Below, piece after piece: positions 27,978 through 56,097 of a DNA stretch of 64,000 nt. The DNA comes from a bacterium. GTDB lineage: Bacteria; Joyebacterota; Joyebacteria; Joyebacterales; Joyebacteraceae. The position numbers and the translations under genes are program-made. The first letter of the stretch is position 1; each line of letters starts with the position of its first letter. The stretch lies in assembly GCA_025774935.1 (NCBI GenBank), contig JALGZK010000001.1, positions 124,001 through 188,000 on the forward strand. Reading direction: 5' to 3'. The notes under the pieces are model-generated. The model worked only from the letters and a program-made list of their open reading frames with translations. It had not been told where the DNA came from and did not search any database.

Positions 27978-30900
27978 ATGCGTGTAGATCGCACGCCGCG
28001 GACCATACTCGTCGCCGGGGCCGCCACGGTCGCGGCGCTCCTGTCCGTGGTGGCGCTGCCTCTACCGCTCCACACGCAGGAGGCCGAGGGACCGCCGGAG
28101 GGAGCACCCGCCGACACCGTGGCTGAGCAGCCGCCGACGCCCGCTGCCGAGGTCGTCGTGGAGCCACTCGCCGGGCCCGAAGGGGCCGCTCCGGACGGGC
28201 CGCCGGCGCTTCCCGACGCGACGGGGGTCGAGAGCGCCCCGCCTGAGGCAGCGGCGGGCGCGGCCGCCGACTCGCTCCACGAGTTCGCGCTGCCCAACTC
28301 GCTGGCGCTTGAGTTTGCGCCCCCCGACACCTTCATCGGCCCGCCGACCGACATGTACGAGGCCGCGCTCGGGCCCGACCTTCCTCCGGTCGATCCGTAC
28401 GCGCTCGGCGTGGCGCTTCCCCACACGGTACCCCCCTTCGTGAGACCGTGGGACCTCTCGGCCATCCGTGGCCGCAGGGGCCTCGACGTCGTGGCGCCGG
28501 AGGTGATCATGTCTCCCGTCGCCGGGACGCCATTCACCCGCGAACTCGTCGTCGACCGCGAGCGCGACTCGATCGTGCTCGTGACGCGCGCGGGCGACTC
28601 GTTCAAGCGCGTGAGCTACGCGGCCCCGCTCTCCGAGTTCATGCGCCACGGCGGGGGGGAGAGGGTCGAGGACACCTGGATCACGACGTCGCAGTACGAG
28701 CTCGGCAAGGGCGTCGAGTCCGGACCGGGGGGACTGCTCGACATCGACATCCCGATGCCCCTCGGCGCAGGAGCGAACCTGAGGGTGCGCGGGAGCGAGC
28801 GGATCACGTTCGGCGGACAGACGAGCTACGTGGTCGAGGCGCTCGACTCGGAGGGCGGCGCTCCGTCGCGGTTCCCGCAGCTCGACATGGAGCAGCAGCT
28901 CACGGTGAACCTCGAGGGGACGATCGGCAACAAGATCCACGTGTACGTCGACCACAGGAGCGGCGGCGACACGTTCGGGACCGGAAAGGCGAACGAGATC
29001 CGTGTTCACTACGAGGGCGAGGAGGACGAGATCGTCCAGAGGATCGAGCTTGGCGAGGTGAACCTGTCTCTTCCGGGGACCGAGTTCGTGAGCTACAGCG
29101 GTCACGCGCAGGGGTTGTTCGGGGCCAAGATGCTCGCGAAGCTCGGGAAGCTCGACGTGACAGCGATCGCGAGTAAGGAGGAAGGAAAGACGTCCGGCGC
29201 GAGTTTCACGGGGACGTCGCAGGCCGACTCGCTCGTGATCAAGGACATCCAGTACAAGGCCGGCACCTTCTTCGCGGTCGACAGCCCGTCGCTCAAGTAC
29301 GCCGACCGGGCCGTCGAGAACATCTCTGTCTACATCGATGACTTGAACGGCGCGAACGACGTCGAGACGGGTGCGCAGGTCGGAGTCGTGTACCTCGTTG
29401 AGGAGGAGGGCACGATCGATCCCGGCGACACGACCGCGGTGAAGCAGATCGGCCGGTTCGACGAGCTCGTGGCGCTCGAGGACTACCTCTTCGACAACCA
29501 GAGCGGAGTGCTCGAGTTCCTCTTCCCGATCCCGGACGGCCACGTTCTGGCGGTGAGTTACAATCGCTTCGACCCGTACTCCGTGGGCGGCGCCGACGGT
29601 GACACCCTGCGCCTCAAGATGATCAAGAAGGACGGCCGAGTCCTCGGGAGCCCCTGGGAGCCGACGAGGCGGTTCCAGCTCAGGCACGTGTACGACTTGG
29701 GCGCCGACAACATCCCCGAAGAGGGATTCGCGCTCACCATCCGCAAGAAGAGCGCGTCGGGAGAGGACCCGGACGTGGAGAACGGCGTCCCGTACGTCGA
29801 AATCCTCGGACTCGACACGGAGGGCGCCGGAGGCGATCCGACGCCGGACGGCGCGGTTGACCCCCAGTGGCTCGATCTGGAGAAGGGCTACCTCTACTAC
29901 CCGTACTACACACCGTACTGCCCCGGCTGGGACACAACGGGCTTCTACTACGATCCGGGGAACCCGCCGCCTCCCGAGTTCGTCGCGGAGGAACTCGAGG
30001 AGTACAACTGCGCGGTCTACAACAACGAGGTCTTCCAGGCTGGCGACGACCTCTACTACATGGTCGTCAAGTACAGCAGGCCCCAGACGACGTTCTACCT
30101 GGGACAGATCAACATCATCGAGAACAGCGAGATCGTACGGCTGAACGGCGTCCCGCTCACGCGTGGGACCGACTACACGATCTACTATCCGGCCGGGCAG
30201 CTCACGCTCCTGAACGAAGAGGCGAAGGAACCCGAGGCGAAGGTCACCGTCGAGTTCGACTACAAGCCGTTCGGGATCGCGGGGGAGAAGACGCTTCTCG
30301 GAGGCCGCGGCGTCTACCGCTGGAGCGAGAACGTCGAGCTCGGGACGACCTGGATGTACCAGAGCAAGGGGACGCCGGACGACCGTCCCCGGCTCGGCGA
30401 AGAGCCGACCAGGAACGTCGTGGGAGACGTGAACCTCTCGGCGGACTTCGCCCCGTACTGGATGACGGCGGCGGCCGACGCGGTTCCCCTCGTCGACACG
30501 GACGTGCTCTCGCGCCTCAGGATCGCCGGCGAGGCCGCCGTCAGCATCCCGGAGCCGAACACGAAGGGCTTCGTCTCGATCGACGACATGGAGGGTGTCG
30601 ATCAGACGAACATGCTCGGCGTGCAGCGCCGCCTGTGGTCGTTCGCGAGCGCACCGGAAGAGCTCGGAGTAGAGATCACGGACCGAATGCCCATCGACTG
30701 GTACAACCCGGACCGCAAGGTCCGGGAGGGCGACCTCCACCCGAACCTCCCCACGAGCGAGGCCAACGAGACGCACACGGTGCTCGAGATCGACTACGAC
30801 GCCGCGAACTCGGCCTCGTGGGCCGGACTGATGCGGCTCATCTCCAAGCTGGGAAGCGACTACTCGAGGGACACGTACTTCGAGATGTGGGTCAACGACG

Positions 30901-33900
30901 ACGGGCATCGTCAGGGCAAGATCCACATGGACCTCGGCACGATCAGCGAGGACTATTACCCGCTCGACCCCGCGATCGGTCCGAACGGAGAGCTGGACAC
31001 CGAGGACGTCGACATCCCGCCGAACGGGTACGACGCCGACGAGGACACGGGCCTCGACAACGTGTGGGGAGCCGACGGCGACAACGTGCCCGGCGACGAC
31101 GGGGACGACGACTACGCGTTCAGCTTCGGCTCGGACGACTACAGTCAGATCAACGGCACGGAGGGCAACGAGAGGTTCGACACTGAGGACCTGAACGGGA
31201 ACACGTACCTCGACGTAGAGAACCGCTACTGGGAGCTCGTCATCGATCTCTCGGACACGACGTACCTCATGCAGGACAACAGCGACCCGGATCAGGTCCC
31301 CGATCCCGAGAAGCGAACGGACTGGCGCCTGTACCGCATCCCGCTCTCCCACGCGACGTCGGTCGGGGGCGTGCTGGACTGGACAGTGATCAAGTCCGCC
31401 AGGCTCTGGGTGGAGGACCTCACGGTCGGCGCCGAGCCCCTCATGATCGGATCGCTCGACATCAAGGGCAACACGTGGGAGCGGCAGGCCGTGAGGGACG
31501 AGGAAGGGAATCCGGTTCCGGAAGAGGAGCTGGGCGATCTCGAGTTCATCGTGGGAGCGGTGAACACGAAGGAGGATCCCGAGTACGCCAACGACCCGCC
31601 GTTCCCCCCGGGGATCGACTCGGAGACGAACCTGCCGGAGCGCGAGCAGTCGCTGTCCCTGAACTTCCTGAACCTACCGGGCGAGTGGAACGTCTCCGCG
31701 AAGAACGCCTTCTTCTCCGAGGAGGACTACACGCGTTACGAGACCCTCGAGTTCTACGTGCACGGTGACGACGACGTGGCAGACGGGACGCGGTTCTTCC
31801 TGCGCCTCGGGGCGGACAGTCTGAACTTCTACGAGTACAGCCTCGAGCTTAGAGAAGGTTGGCGTCAGGACCTGGGAAGCGCGTCGAACAGACTGGCCGT
31901 CGCGTTCAAGTCGTTCACCGACCTCAAGCTCGATCCGTACGCCGACCAGGACACGGTGGCCGTCTGGGGTGACACGACGCGTGTGAAGGGCGAGCTCTTC
32001 AGGCGAGTCGGCTGGCCGTCGCTCTCGAGGATCAGCGCGCTTGCGGTCGGAGTGAGGAACGACAGCGAGGACTTCGTGGGGAACGAGATTTCCGGCTCGG
32101 TCTGGGTCGACGAGCTCCTGCTCACGGACGTGCGGAAGGAGATCGGCTGGGCGGAGCGTGTGACGATCAACTCGAAGTTCGCAGACCTCGCGGTGATCGA
32201 CTTCGACTTCAGGCACGTCGACGAGAACTTCCACACCCTGAAGCAGACGCGGGGATCCGGTTCGGACAACGTCGTCTACAACCTCACCGGCACGCTCAAC
32301 TCGGACAAGTTCGTGGGGGGCATGGGGCTCTCCGCGCCCCTGAACTTCACGTGGAAGAAGACGCAAAGTCGACCGGAGTTCTCGACTGGGTCGGACATCG
32401 TCCTTGATGCGGAAGAGAGCGAGGAGGAGAAGACCGTCTCGCGTGAGCGGACGCTCGCCGCGTCTCTCGCAAGGAGGAGACAGTCGCAGAACTTCTGGAC
32501 ACACCTGTTCATCGACGGCCTCGCGCTCAGAGCGTCCGTCTCCGACAACGTGCGGCAGTCGCCGACCAGGATCGACACGTCGAGCACGATCCGCGGCAGA
32601 ATCGCCTACAAGTACCAGCCCGAGAGGTCCCCGATCAGGCTCTTCGGCAACACGGACCTCTTCGTGAAGCCCACGAGTCTGCGGTTCCTCGTGGAGACGC
32701 ACCTGATCCACAACAAGAGCTACGACGTCGCGGCCGACGGACTGGTCACGCGCAGGGTGAACACGCACGACAACAAGCTGAACGCGGACGGGAACATCGA
32801 CTTCCAGTTCCTGGACAACCTCCGGACGACGCACGGCGTGTCCTCGAGGCGCGACCTGACTCGGCCGATCAAGGAGATCGGCGATGTCACGGTGGGACTC
32901 AACATGGGCTCGGAGACCGAGCGCCGATACGCCAACAGCCTCAACTTCAACCCGAAGTTCGGCCAGTGGTTCGCGCCGCAGTACAGCTTCTCCTCGAACT
33001 ACACGGACAGCCACGGCCCGGAGATCAGGCGGCCGGGAGATCCCGCGAAGGTGCACAACATCCGGTCGCAGACGAACCAGGAGCTGCGTGCGAGCTTCGA
33101 CCTGAAGAAGCTGCTCGGTCCCGGCCCCGCTGCGATGCCGTCGCGACCGCCTCCGCGCGAGCGGCAGCCCTCGAGGACGGGCACGAGCGGGAGCACGGGA
33201 CGCGAGAGTCCCGACTCGGGATCGGTCGGAGCGGCGGGCGGCCGCGAAGCGCCGGAAGGGACGCCCGGCGCCTCCGGGGCTCCGGAGCCCGGGAGAAGCG
33301 AGGGGACGGGAGAGGAAGATGCCGGAGAGGGCCGCCAGGGGCAGGAGGGCGCCGAGGGCCAGGAGGGCGAGGCGGGAGACCAGACGGGAGAGCAGGAGGG
33401 GGAGCAGGAAGGGGAGCAGGAGGAGCCGCCGGGTGAGGGGCCCGGACTGGGCGACGTCGTGCGTCCCATTGTCACGTTCCTGCGTGAGATGGACGCGATC
33501 GACGGGAGAATCGGTCTGAGGTGGGACTCGAGGTACGACCGCGTCCCGCACGAGGACGTTCCGGACTGGAAGTACAAGCTCGGGCTAGACAGGGGCCGCG
33601 ACGCGGACGACCGGACCGAGGAGACGACCTTCGACCTCGGAACGGGATTCAAGTTCACGAACCAGATCCGTCTGAAGGGGGACTTCAAGCGAACGCACTC
33701 GGGCAGATGGTACAAGAGCGTGGTGTCCGACACGATCTTCATCATCAGCCAGACAAAGTCGATGAACGAGACCACGAAGGGGACGTTCTCGTGGAACGCG
33801 CTCGAGAAGATCGGACCGCTTTCGGGAGTGTTCCAGAGCGTGCGCGCGCGGAGCGGGATCGAGTACCGCCGGTCTTACTCCGGACCGGTGGGGACGCCGA

Positions 33901-34391
33901 CCTCCGAGGGGAGCGCGCTCCTGTTCAACCCGATCGTCTCGGTCGACACGAAGTTCAAGAACGGCCTGAGCGCGAACCTCGCCTGGGACAGGAAACGCAC
34001 GCTGTCACACAGCCTGACGGGAGCGGGCTCCGTGACCGAGGACAAGACGTCGTCGTTGAGCCTGACGCTCAACTACAGGTTCTCAGCGCCTCAGGGACTC
34101 AAGCTCCCGTTCTTTGGCCAGAGCGTGAAGTTCACGAGCAACCTCGACACGGCACTCACGTTCCGGACGGGCTCGAAGGAGACGCGGACGGCTCAGGACG
34201 AGTCGAGTCTGTCGCAGGTCGACCCGACGTCATCGACGAGGGACATCTCCGTCGTCGCGGACGCGACTTACAGCTTCTCCCGGAACGTGTCCGGAGGACT
34301 TCAGGTCAACTTCTCGCAGAGCCGGGACGTCAAGCGGGAGCAGACCCGGCGGACAATCGGCATGCACGTGACAGCGGAGTTCAAGTTCTAA
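27978..34391 (+). CDS. SprA/Sov-family giant outer-membrane protein
   Basis: A 2137-residue protein resembling SprA, the outer-membrane translocon of the Bacteroidetes type IX secretion system. It has an N-terminal hydrophobic signal segment (about residues 8-32), a Pro/Ala-rich linker, and repeated long beta-rich regions. SprA-like motifs include LSLPGTEFVSYSGHAQGLFGAK near 360, GRGVYRWSENVELGTTWMYQS, SIDDMEGVDQTNMLG near 865, and an Asp-rich calcium-type stretch ending DTEDLNGNTYLDVENRYWEL near 995-1080. The barrel-like C-terminus ends in an aromatic strand, HVTAEFKF. A hydrophilic G/E/Q-rich insertion occupies about residues 1715-1825. Family placement rests on these motifs and size; function in secretion is inferred. 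It overlaps the following M28 gene by one base. Confidence 0.82.
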   Translation: MRVDRTPRTILVAGAATVAALLSVVALPLPLHTQEAEGPPEGAPADTVAEQPPTPAAEVVVEPLAGPEGAAPDGPPALPDATGVESAPPEAAAGAAADSLHEFALPNSLALEFAPPDTFIGPPTDMYEAALGPDLPPVDPYALGVALPHTVPPFVRPWDLSAIRGRRGLDVVAPEVIMSPVAGTPFTRELVVDRERDSIVLVTRAGDSFKRVSYAAPLSEFMRHGGGERVEDTWITTSQYELGKGVESGPGGLLDIDIPMPLGAGANLRVRGSERITFGGQTSYVVEALDSEGGAPSRFPQLDMEQQLTVNLEGTIGNKIHVYVDHRSGGDTFGTGKANEIRVHYEGEEDEIVQRIELGEVNLSLPGTEFVSYSGHAQGLFGAKMLAKLGKLDVTAIASKEEGKTSGASFTGTSQADSLVIKDIQYKAGTFFAVDSPSLKYADRAVENISVYIDDLNGANDVETGAQVGVVYLVEEEGTIDPGDTTAVKQIGRFDELVALEDYLFDNQSGVLEFLFPIPDGHVLAVSYNRFDPYSVGGADGDTLRLKMIKKDGRVLGSPWEPTRRFQLRHVYDLGADNIPEEGFALTIRKKSASGEDPDVENGVPYVEILGLDTEGAGGDPTPDGAVDPQWLDLEKGYLYYPYYTPYCPGWDTTGFYYDPGNPPPPEFVAEELEEYNCAVYNNEVFQAGDDLYYMVVKYSRPQTTFYLGQINIIENSEIVRLNGVPLTRGTDYTIYYPAGQLTLLNEEAKEPEAKVTVEFDYKPFGIAGEKTLLGGRGVYRWSENVELGTTWMYQSKGTPDDRPRLGEEPTRNVVGDVNLSADFAPYWMTAAADAVPLVDTDVLSRLRIAGEAAVSIPEPNTKGFVSIDDMEGVDQTNMLGVQRRLWSFASAPEELGVEITDRMPIDWYNPDRKVREGDLHPNLPTSEANETHTVLEIDYDAANSASWAGLMRLISKLGSDYSRDTYFEMWVNDDGHRQGKIHMDLGTISEDYYPLDPAIGPNGELDTEDVDIPPNGYDADEDTGLDNVWGADGDNVPGDDGDDDYAFSFGSDDYSQINGTEGNERFDTEDLNGNTYLDVENRYWELVIDLSDTTYLMQDNSDPDQVPDPEKRTDWRLYRIPLSHATSVGGVLDWTVIKSARLWVEDLTVGAEPLMIGSLDIKGNTWERQAVRDEEGNPVPEEELGDLEFIVGAVNTKEDPEYANDPPFPPGIDSETNLPEREQSLSLNFLNLPGEWNVSAKNAFFSEEDYTRYETLEFYVHGDDDVADGTRFFLRLGADSLNFYEYSLELREGWRQDLGSASNRLAVAFKSFTDLKLDPYADQDTVAVWGDTTRVKGELFRRVGWPSLSRISALAVGVRNDSEDFVGNEISGSVWVDELLLTDVRKEIGWAERVTINSKFADLAVIDFDFRHVDENFHTLKQTRGSGSDNVVYNLTGTLNSDKFVGGMGLSAPLNFTWKKTQSRPEFSTGSDIVLDAEESEEEKTVSRERTLAASLARRRQSQNFWTHLFIDGLALRASVSDNVRQSPTRIDTSSTIRGRIAYKYQPERSPIRLFGNTDLFVKPTSLRFLVETHLIHNKSYDVAADGLVTRRVNTHDNKLNADGNIDFQFLDNLRTTHGVSSRRDLTRPIKEIGDVTVGLNMGSETERRYANSLNFNPKFGQWFAPQYSFSSNYTDSHGPEIRRPGDPAKVHNIRSQTNQELRASFDLKKLLGPGPAAMPSRPPPRERQPSRTGTSGSTGRESPDSGSVGAAGGREAPEGTPGASGAPEPGRSEGTGEEDAGEGRQGQEGAEGQEGEAGDQTGEQEGEQEGEQEEPPGEGPGLGDVVRPIVTFLREMDAIDGRIGLRWDSRYDRVPHEDVPDWKYKLGLDRGRDADDRTEETTFDLGTGFKFTNQIRLKGDFKRTHSGRWYKSVVSDTIFIISQTKSMNETTKGTFSWNALEKIGPLSGVFQSVRARSGIEYRRSYSGPVGTPTSEGSALLFNPIVSVDTKFKNGLSANLAWDRKRTLSHSLTGAGSVTEDKTSSLSLTLNYRFSAPQGLKLPFFGQSVKFTSNLDTALTFRTGSKETRTAQDESSLSQVDPTSSTRDISVVADATYSFSRNVSGGLQVNFSQSRDVKREQTRRTIGMHVTAEFKF
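33126..33450 (+). repeat. Low-complexity coding segment inside the SprA-like gene
   Basis: About 108 codons encode Pro/Arg-rich, then Gly/Ser/Thr-rich, then Glu/Gln/Gly-rich sequence, ending with EQEGEQEGEQEE from repeats of GGAGGGGGAGCAG type. The flanks return to beta-strand-rich sequence in the same frame. Confidence 0.85.
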
Positions 34392-53926: not shown

Positions 53927-55933
53927 CTACTTCAGGAGCGTCATCTTCGTGAACGCGCTCTCGCTGCCGGCACTCACCTTGGCGAAGTAGACACCGCTCG
54001 CGAGACGGTGCCCGTCGTCGTCCTTCCCGTCCCAGACGGCGAGCGCGGGCCCCGGAGGGAGCGTCTCGTCGACGAGCGAGCGCACCACGCGTCCGCTAAG
54101 GTCGAGGATCGTGAGCTCGACGCGCTCGGCGCCGGACGGCACGGTGTACGCGATCTTCGTCACGGGATTGAACGGGTTCGGGAAGTTCTGTGAGATCGCG
54201 AGCCTGTGCATCTCGCCTTCCTCGACACCCACCGCCGGTGCGAACCAGTCCAGGATCCTCCCGAGGAGCGTCGTCCGGTTGCTCGGAGTCGGATCGTCCA
54301 TGCTCACGGACTCGAACGCGAACGTCGTGAAGACGATCTTGTGTCCGTTCTCGGCTACCTTGAGTCCCTGGATCCCGGAGGTGCTCGTGAAGATGGTCTC
54401 GGACGGCGAGTCGATCACGATGGCCTCGGCGTTGTTCCCGAGAGGGTACCAGAGCTCGTCCAACACCATCCCGTCCGAGATCACATCGCCGTCGACGCCC
54501 ACGACCGTGTACTGCCCGACTGCGTTTATCCACGACGTGATGTGCATGTAGTCCGTGGTCATCGTCGTCGAGCCGGGGAGACTCGAGAGGTAGTTCATGC
54601 TCGAGAGATAGAGGTTCCCGCCGCCGTCCAGGTACGACATCAGGACGTCCTCGTCATCGCCGAGGTCCGTCGCGAAGCCGGAGCCGGTCGTCCACAGAAC
54701 CGTGGAGTACGACGAGAGCAGATCCAGCTCGGGTCGTCCGCGGTCGTCGGCGATCCAGACCGTCGCGCCGAGCCCCAGGTTCGAGAGAGGCTCCTCCCAC
54801 CACGCGTGCCAGCCCCATCCGTCGTCGTCCGCGACGAGGAGGAGGGAGGGCACCTCGACGAACGTCGAGAAGGAGACCTGGTCGCTGGCGGCCCTACTGC
54901 CACCGCTCACGGCCGACAGGGTCGTCACGGCCATGCCCTCAGCCGTCCCGATGTTGTCGACGACGCGTACCTCGAGGTCGAGATCCTCGCCGACACCGAG
55001 GGCGAACTCCGTCGGCTCGGTGTACCAGGTGCCTCCGACCTCCCGGAAGCTCGCCTCCCAGTCCGCCGGCCCGACTCCGTCGGGCAGCACGTCCTGGTTG
55101 ACGCTCACGGTGACGACGTTCGCCGCGAGCCCGATGTTCGAGAGCGTCGCCGTGTACGTGGCGGTTCCGAGGTAGCCGATCTCCTTCGCGTAGTCGGTCG
55201 TCGCCATCTGGACGGAGTAGAGATCGGGTACGACCTGCGCGTTGTACACCACGTGTGGCGACATGTCCTCGATGAAGACCACCACATCGAGCGCGCCGAC
55301 GAGCGGCCAAGGGGTGTCGGTGATCGTGAACTCCCTGTGGACCACGACGGAGTCGCCGGGAGCCGTCAGGACCACATCCTCGTGGGGCAGATGGTCCCGC
55401 ATGGTCCAGTTGTAGTGTTCGCCGGTCTTCTCGATCACGACGAACTGGGCCCTGAGAACCCCTGCGCTCACCGGGTCGACGACCTTGAACGTCGCGTCGA
55501 CCCAGCCGCCCGTCTCGTCGAAGACTCCGTTCGTGCGAATCGTGATCGGGGTGGGAACGGGGAGCCGCTGGTTTATCCGGTCTCTGTACGCCGAGTAGAC
55601 GCCGCTCCCGCCGCCGGTATACGTGAGAACCGCGTCGAACTTGCACGTGGGGTGCGCACTGATGTCCGGGTAGAGGAGCTGCCGGTTGCGGGCCTCGCTC
55701 GTGTAGTAGTTGCCGCCAATCCTGCTGTGCCAGTAGATGATGACGAGCTCTTCTTCACTGAAGGTCCCGTCTCCTCTGAGATTCTCGAGCGCCAACTGCG
55801 CATCGGGGCAGAAACTTCAGTTGGTGCCCCCGAAGAGCTCTGCGAGCACCGCTCGCTGCGCGGCAAATGCCGGCGTGGCCGCGCCACAGAGGATCAGGGC
55901 AGAGAGCCCCAGGATCGCCAATCTTCTCGACAT
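53927..55933 (-). CDS. Secreted thioredoxin-like selenoprotein with UxxC motif and FlgD-like C-terminal domain
   Basis: A 668-residue reading frame interrupted once by TGA at codon 39. Residues 1-25 are a signal peptide ending ATPAFAA. Residues 26-50 read RAVLAELFGGTN-U-SFCPDAQLA, matching the Omp28/thioredoxin-like pattern (EFTxTWCxxCP) with TGA at the first Cys. The thioredoxin-type strand ELVIIYWHS follows. Beta-rich Ig/CARDB-like segments fill the middle, and residues 576-668 form a FlgD-like domain beginning QNFPNPFNPVTKIAY, a tail used for type IX-type sorting or surface anchoring. The ATG at 55931-55933 has AGGAG 6 nt upstream. The frame after the TGA is open for 629 codons and retains conserved features, arguing against decay. 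Other genes here use TGA as a normal stop. The selenocysteine reading is inference supported by the adjacent SECIS-like hairpin. Confidence 0.85.
55786..55805 (-). promoter_or_regulatory. Bacterial SECIS-like element
   Basis: On the minus strand, starting 11 nt after the in-frame TGA: CGA, a bulged T, GCGC, loop AGTTG, GCGC, TCG. The 3-bp lower stem, single bulged U, 4-bp upper stem and GU in the apical loop are the features recognised by SelB in the E. coli fdhF element, which is also placed 11 nt after its UGA. Confidence 0.8.
55817..55819 (-). other. In-frame TGA codon, predicted selenocysteine (Sec39)
   Basis: Codon 39 of the minus-strand gene starting at 55933. It is followed by AGT TTC TGC (Ser-Phe-Cys), so the motif is U-x-x-C. 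Confidence 0.82.
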
Positions 55934-56097
55934 CCATCACTCCTTTCGCGGCAGCGCCGCTCCGCTCTCCGGGAATCCCACCCGCGGGGTCTCGCGAAAG
56001 GCAGGATTCCCTCGTGTCCAACAGCCTCCAGCCATGTGCGTGGGACGCGCTTCACCGTTCGGGGCGCCGCGTGCAACGCCCCCATGCCACACTACAC

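Follow-up and report, generated by a model that had tools for sequence, protein, structure and literature searches.

The Omp28-related selenoproteins of family NF045500 were named 'hypothetical protein GOS_C' when they were found in marine metagenomes (PMC2398784), and GOS_C is listed with the motif UxxC in a 2026 review (PMC13188914). HBP35 of Porphyromonas gingivalis is a protein whose thioredoxin activity depends on two active-site cysteines (PMC2907840) and which reaches the cell surface via type IX secretion (PMC3120885); the type IX secretion system (T9SS) was described in a 2023 review as restricted to Bacteroidota (PMC10202324). The literature searches turned up no selenoprotein carrying a type-IX-like sorting domain, no paper treating selenoproteins together with Omp28 or selenocysteine together with Eisenbacteria, and no experiment on the protein described here or its selenocysteine (Sec)-containing relatives. 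Candidatus Effluviviaceae belongs to Ca. Effluviviacota (PMC11323493), and the paper on that phylum contains no word beginning with 'selen'.

The gene lies on the minus strand of a 64,000-nucleotide stretch of bacterial DNA, here called the window. Its frame runs from an ATG at 55933 to a stop at 53927 and has a single internal stop, a TGA at codon 39 (55817..55819, minus strand), which is followed by 629 open codons. Read through, the frame is a complete predicted selenoprotein of 668 amino acids with Sec at position 39 (53927..55933, minus strand), and full-length homologs have one TGA at the same codon. A ribosome binding site, AAAGGAG, is located 6 nt 5' of the ATG (55940..55946, minus strand), with near-identical CCGCGAAAGGAG leaders in several homologs. 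Codons 1 to 24 (MSRRLAILGLSALILCGAATPAFA; 55862..55933, minus strand) read as a signal peptide, as judged from the sequence and from signal-like N termini in aligned homologs, with the cleavage site placed by inspection only. The motif around the TGA is T-N-U-S-F-C-P, in which Cys42 (55808..55810, minus strand), the putative resolving cysteine of UxxC, is invariant in alignments A1 and A4. Mechanical ORF calling placed the start at a TTG at 55795 (codon 47), losing the first 46 codons. The preliminary description of this DNA had reported the open frame with its 629 intact codons, the good ribosome binding site, the signal peptide, and the start at codon 47 in standard calling, and re-reading gave the same picture on each point. 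Exported redox genes of this sort are easy to overlook in uncultured sediment bacteria, because standard gene calling drops both the signal peptide and the active site. We consider that the TGA at codon 39 encodes Sec at the active site of a thioredoxin-like protein, with a probability of about 0.95; this figure covers the Sec reading alone, and surface export is graded separately.

A search of 61 genomes identified full-length homologs with one TGA or none. Codon 39 was TGA in 15 and Cys in 11 of the 26 that were aligned, which share 29 to 62% identity with the window protein, and at least five changes between the two states were found on a tree built without the TGA/Cys column. The TGA had been placed by the preliminary description on the first Cys of an expected CxxC, and relatives bear this out, as TGA or Cys occupies exactly that codon and the two alternate there, and the TGA forms retain the SECIS features. 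Using a profile of the N-terminal domain over 290 genomes, about 61 one-TGA genes were counted by hand among the matches listed, from the same family and more than 15 other families, and no TAA or TAG was found in the domain among those matches. All 20 sampled outlier genes, drawn mostly from other families, carried the TGA within a UxxC motif.

A pseudogene would offer another explanation: a Cys codon would have turned into TGA by one nonsense mutation, and any real product would begin at the TTG of codon 47. A single base separates TGA from TGC and TGT, and the nearest ortholog, from the same genus (G002; 80 to 87% identical), has a frameshifting deletion of approximately 52 nt near residues 437 to 454 (L017 and L110, G002 contig 294). 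Disrupted copies in close strains, which the preliminary description had named as a sign of a pseudogene, were therefore seen once, but this deletion is far downstream of the TGA; the G002 contig ends before the TGA position, and the deletion is possibly an assembly fault. Against a pseudogene, the same TGA is present in the 15 homologs and across other phyla, and the reading frame is under purifying selection on both sides of the TGA, with dN/dS against the G001 homolog of 0.28 over the 38 codons before it and 0.45 after it (rough values, the synonymous sites being strongly diverged). The complete Sec machinery described below also argues against decay, and we regard a pseudogene as very improbable. 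Because the TGA recurs at the same codon and UxxC motif in homologs, with six copies in one genome, a random nonsense mutation is effectively excluded as its source.

The source genome is a 3.24-Mb draft that is 96% complete. All four genes that the preliminary description had proposed to look for (selA, selB, selC, and selD) are present above curated cut-offs. The selC product, tRNA-Sec, scored 71.5 bits and was called tRNA-SeC with anticodon tca by ARAGORN, while selB, selA, and selD scored 344.6, 533.2, and 371 bits, respectively; selD adjoins selC and has one in-frame TGA of its own. Matches to tRNA-Sec of at least 68 bits were identified in all 13 family genomes searched, and selA was found in most of the 20 genomes searched; it was not found in G005 and G015, both of which are drafts that carry TGA forms. 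The G001 draft has two high-scoring tRNA-Sec genes (G001:C97:3294-3388 and G001:C30:94415-94509; 72.3 and 72.1 bits). With the machinery present, TGA and Cys alternating, and the SECIS kept in TGA forms, the earlier preference for Sec over a simple nonsense mutation holds. Were UGA instead translated as a different amino acid (Trp or Gly, for instance) through a suppressor or a reassigned code, a single gene with a frame open across TGA would look no different. TGA also serves as a stop here, however, and as 4 of the 14 clear window genes end in it, general reassignment of UGA can be ruled out; aligned homologs that do not have TGA have Cys at this position, and tRNA-Sec and its partner genes are present. 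Decoding as another amino acid is thus the least credible of the alternatives weighed. A codon-usage scan of the window for TGA-interrupted genes returned none and also missed the target gene itself, so it carries no weight either way.

In the published model of the bacterial SECIS, the loop is 3 to 9 nt and the stem 4 to 16 bp, a G is present in the first two loop positions, the spacing is 16 to 37 nt, and the folding energy is at most -7.5 kcal/mol (PMC13188914). The candidate hairpin in the window (55786..55805, minus strand) consists of CGA, a bulged U18, GCGC, the loop AGUUG, GCGC, and UCG, giving a 4-bp upper stem and a 5-nt loop that contains GU and begins 19 nt downstream of the UGA, with a local energy of -10.1 kcal/mol. 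It fits this model, as do 29% of random coding positions (87 of 300), and its folding energy does not stand out given its composition (z of -0.58). Taken singly, the hairpin is weak evidence, and it becomes convincing only through conservation across homologs: the model was fitted by 15 of 15 TGA homologs versus 6 of 12 Cys homologs. The statement of the preliminary description that a SECIS-like hairpin favors Sec was therefore too strong for the hairpin alone, but stands for its retention in all 15 TGA homologs. The GU of the apical loop comes from an Arg codon, which was CGT in all 11 TGA homologs with Arg at this site, although these copies are related and do not represent 11 independent events. 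In nine window genes CGT accounts for 3% of Arg codons, and in these homologs for 13%; the loop CGT column ranked first of 407 for synonymous conservation. A second subfamily has other residues at the loop site, yet at an equal distance it retains a hairpin, whose loop is GGUC or AGUUA. A single genus supplies four of the six Cys homologs that fit, and there the hairpin looks like a relic. These genus g3 homologs (L023, L024, L025, and L046) keep the SECIS-like hairpin, and two of them have TGT (Cys) in place of the loop Arg codon CGT, a substitution to be expected after a recent Sec-to-Cys change. Covariation was set aside as proof of a SECIS: as the hairpin overlaps sequence under protein constraint, RNAalifold returned only four pairs, with a covariation term close to nil, and the codon-choice test and the random-position control were used in its place. 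Per-sequence folding z-scores were likewise set aside, as most were not significant.

The window protein does not stand alone: its genome encodes six paralogs with a TGA, of which contigs 14 (in tandem) and 30 carry two each and contig 21 carries one, in addition to the window copy. The pair on contig 30 (L099:1470-4099), also in tandem, belongs to a second UxxC subfamily (UAFCPSAV / UVFCPSAV) and has GGUC or AGUUA SECIS loops. On G005 contig 102, an intact CxxC homolog is directly preceded by the decayed N-terminal remnant of a UxxC gene (L043:977-1416), which suggests that a Cys copy has replaced one with Sec. In nine loci, the gene directly preceding the UxxC gene, or the CxxC gene in its place, encodes a CxxC-motif protein of Ig-plus-Omp28-like type (L039:1-1734 on contig 14 of the source genome and the same place in L016, L020, L021, L025, L026, L041, L043, and L045); this neighbor is a possible redox partner of the UxxC protein. 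Six TGA paralogs in one genome, together with repeated Sec/Cys switching in close relatives, provide good material on when selenium is kept or dropped.

AlphaFold confidently modeled the whole protein with a pLDDT of 83.6 and the N-terminal 230 amino acids alone with a pLDDT of 89.6. The latter contains a predicted thioredoxin-fold domain at residues 24 to 126 (55556..55864, minus strand), which VIA-align aligned with HBP35 and thioredoxins, followed by a predicted beta-sandwich domain as in HBP35 at residues 130 to 235 (55229..55546, minus strand), HBP35 aligning over model residues 24 to 230. In the model, Sec39 is in the loop that leads into helix 42-54, where thioredoxins usually have their active site. 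The best solved structural match was HBP35 (Foldseek E value of 5.2e-8; VIA-align Z of 20.4 over 198 residues at 2.5 A, with 15% identity). The preliminary assignment to Omp28/thioredoxin-like proteins was thus right in kind, with HBP35 as the closest solved structure. A Foldseek search with the whole 668-residue model had returned Ig-domain proteins at low TM-score, and the N-terminal domain was then predicted alone.

A feature absent from the preliminary description is a C-terminal FlgD_ig / T9SS type-A-like sorting domain at residues 584 to 664 (53942..54184, minus strand), and the protein ends in KMTLLK. The domain scored 45.8 bits with PF13860 (cut-off 27); of the type-A sorting-domain models, TIGR04183 barely passed its cut-off (23.5 bits against 23) and PF18962 remained under it (22.5 bits against 27). 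A homolog of the T9SS outer-membrane translocon SprA/Sov, representing a possible export route, is encoded at 27978..34391 on the plus strand (TIGR04189, 529.3 bits; cut-off 200). This homolog lies outside Bacteroidota, contrary to the restriction stated in the 2023 review. From these sequence features, export to the surface by an SprA-type, T9SS-like route seems somewhat more probable than retention in the cell envelope. Under the latter explanation the protein would still be a selenoprotein, but a periplasmic or outer-membrane-retained one in which the FlgD-like domain is a structural Ig domain and no type IX signal. The strongest match of the tail to FlgD_ig, the failure of PF18962, the description of T9SS as confined to Bacteroidota, and the reliance of the T9SS gene evidence here on SprA alone would all agree with retention. 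It is, however, harder to reconcile with the narrow passing of the TIGR04183 cut-off, with tail scores of 30 to 37 bits in some relatives, with SprA matches in 12 of the 13 family genomes searched, and with T9SS export of the solved relative HBP35 (PMC3120885), and we hold retention to be the less likely of the two, though a serious contender.

If Sec is inserted and the protein exported, SelB and Sec-tRNA-Sec, guided by the hairpin about 15 to 34 nt from the UGA, would decode UGA 39 as Sec, and the 668-residue precursor with its signal peptide would cross the inner membrane. The N-terminal module, predicted to join a thioredoxin fold to a beta-sandwich in the manner of HBP35, would act as a UxxC thiol-disulfide oxidoreductase in which Sec39 is the nucleophile and Cys42 the resolving residue, and the C-terminal FlgD/type-IX-like domain would most likely direct the protein outside through an SprA-type translocon. 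The gene has many counterparts, mostly unannotated, that encode similar, predicted exported selenoproteins in several little-known bacterial phyla. On a wider reading, these would amount to a large, largely unannotated superfamily of Sec thioredoxins that bacteria of the Ca. Effluviviacota type, as well as several other phyla, send to the cell surface through type-IX-like secretion, a single genome encoding as many as six; we rate the odds of this as even. If so, selenium-based extracellular thiol chemistry would be a regular trait of these organisms.

The Omp28 family shows weak N-terminal similarity to nearly all members (NF033782 matches 21 of 22), but the window protein scored only 29.1 bits against the NF033782 cut-off of 150, and PF11551 (gathering score of 34.9 bits) had no match in it at an E value of 1 or less. 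With NF045500/GOS_C it shares a Trx-like fold, UxxC with Sec first, Sec/Cys interchange, and a SECIS after the TGA; unlike that family, it has extra beta domains and a C-terminal sorting domain, and it scored 22.8 bits (whole protein) and 25.6 bits (N terminus) against a cut-off of 200. No gene in the 61 related genomes passed this cut-off, and ten further TGA genes also failed it. The window protein is thus best placed as kin of NF045500, the nearest catalogued family, but no member by the curated test, and the curated model is too restrictive to recover these proteins. HBP35 (PDB 5y1a) differs in having two active-site cysteines, a much shorter chain, and 15% identity, but has the same combination of a thioredoxin and a beta domain with a C-terminal domain of type IX type.
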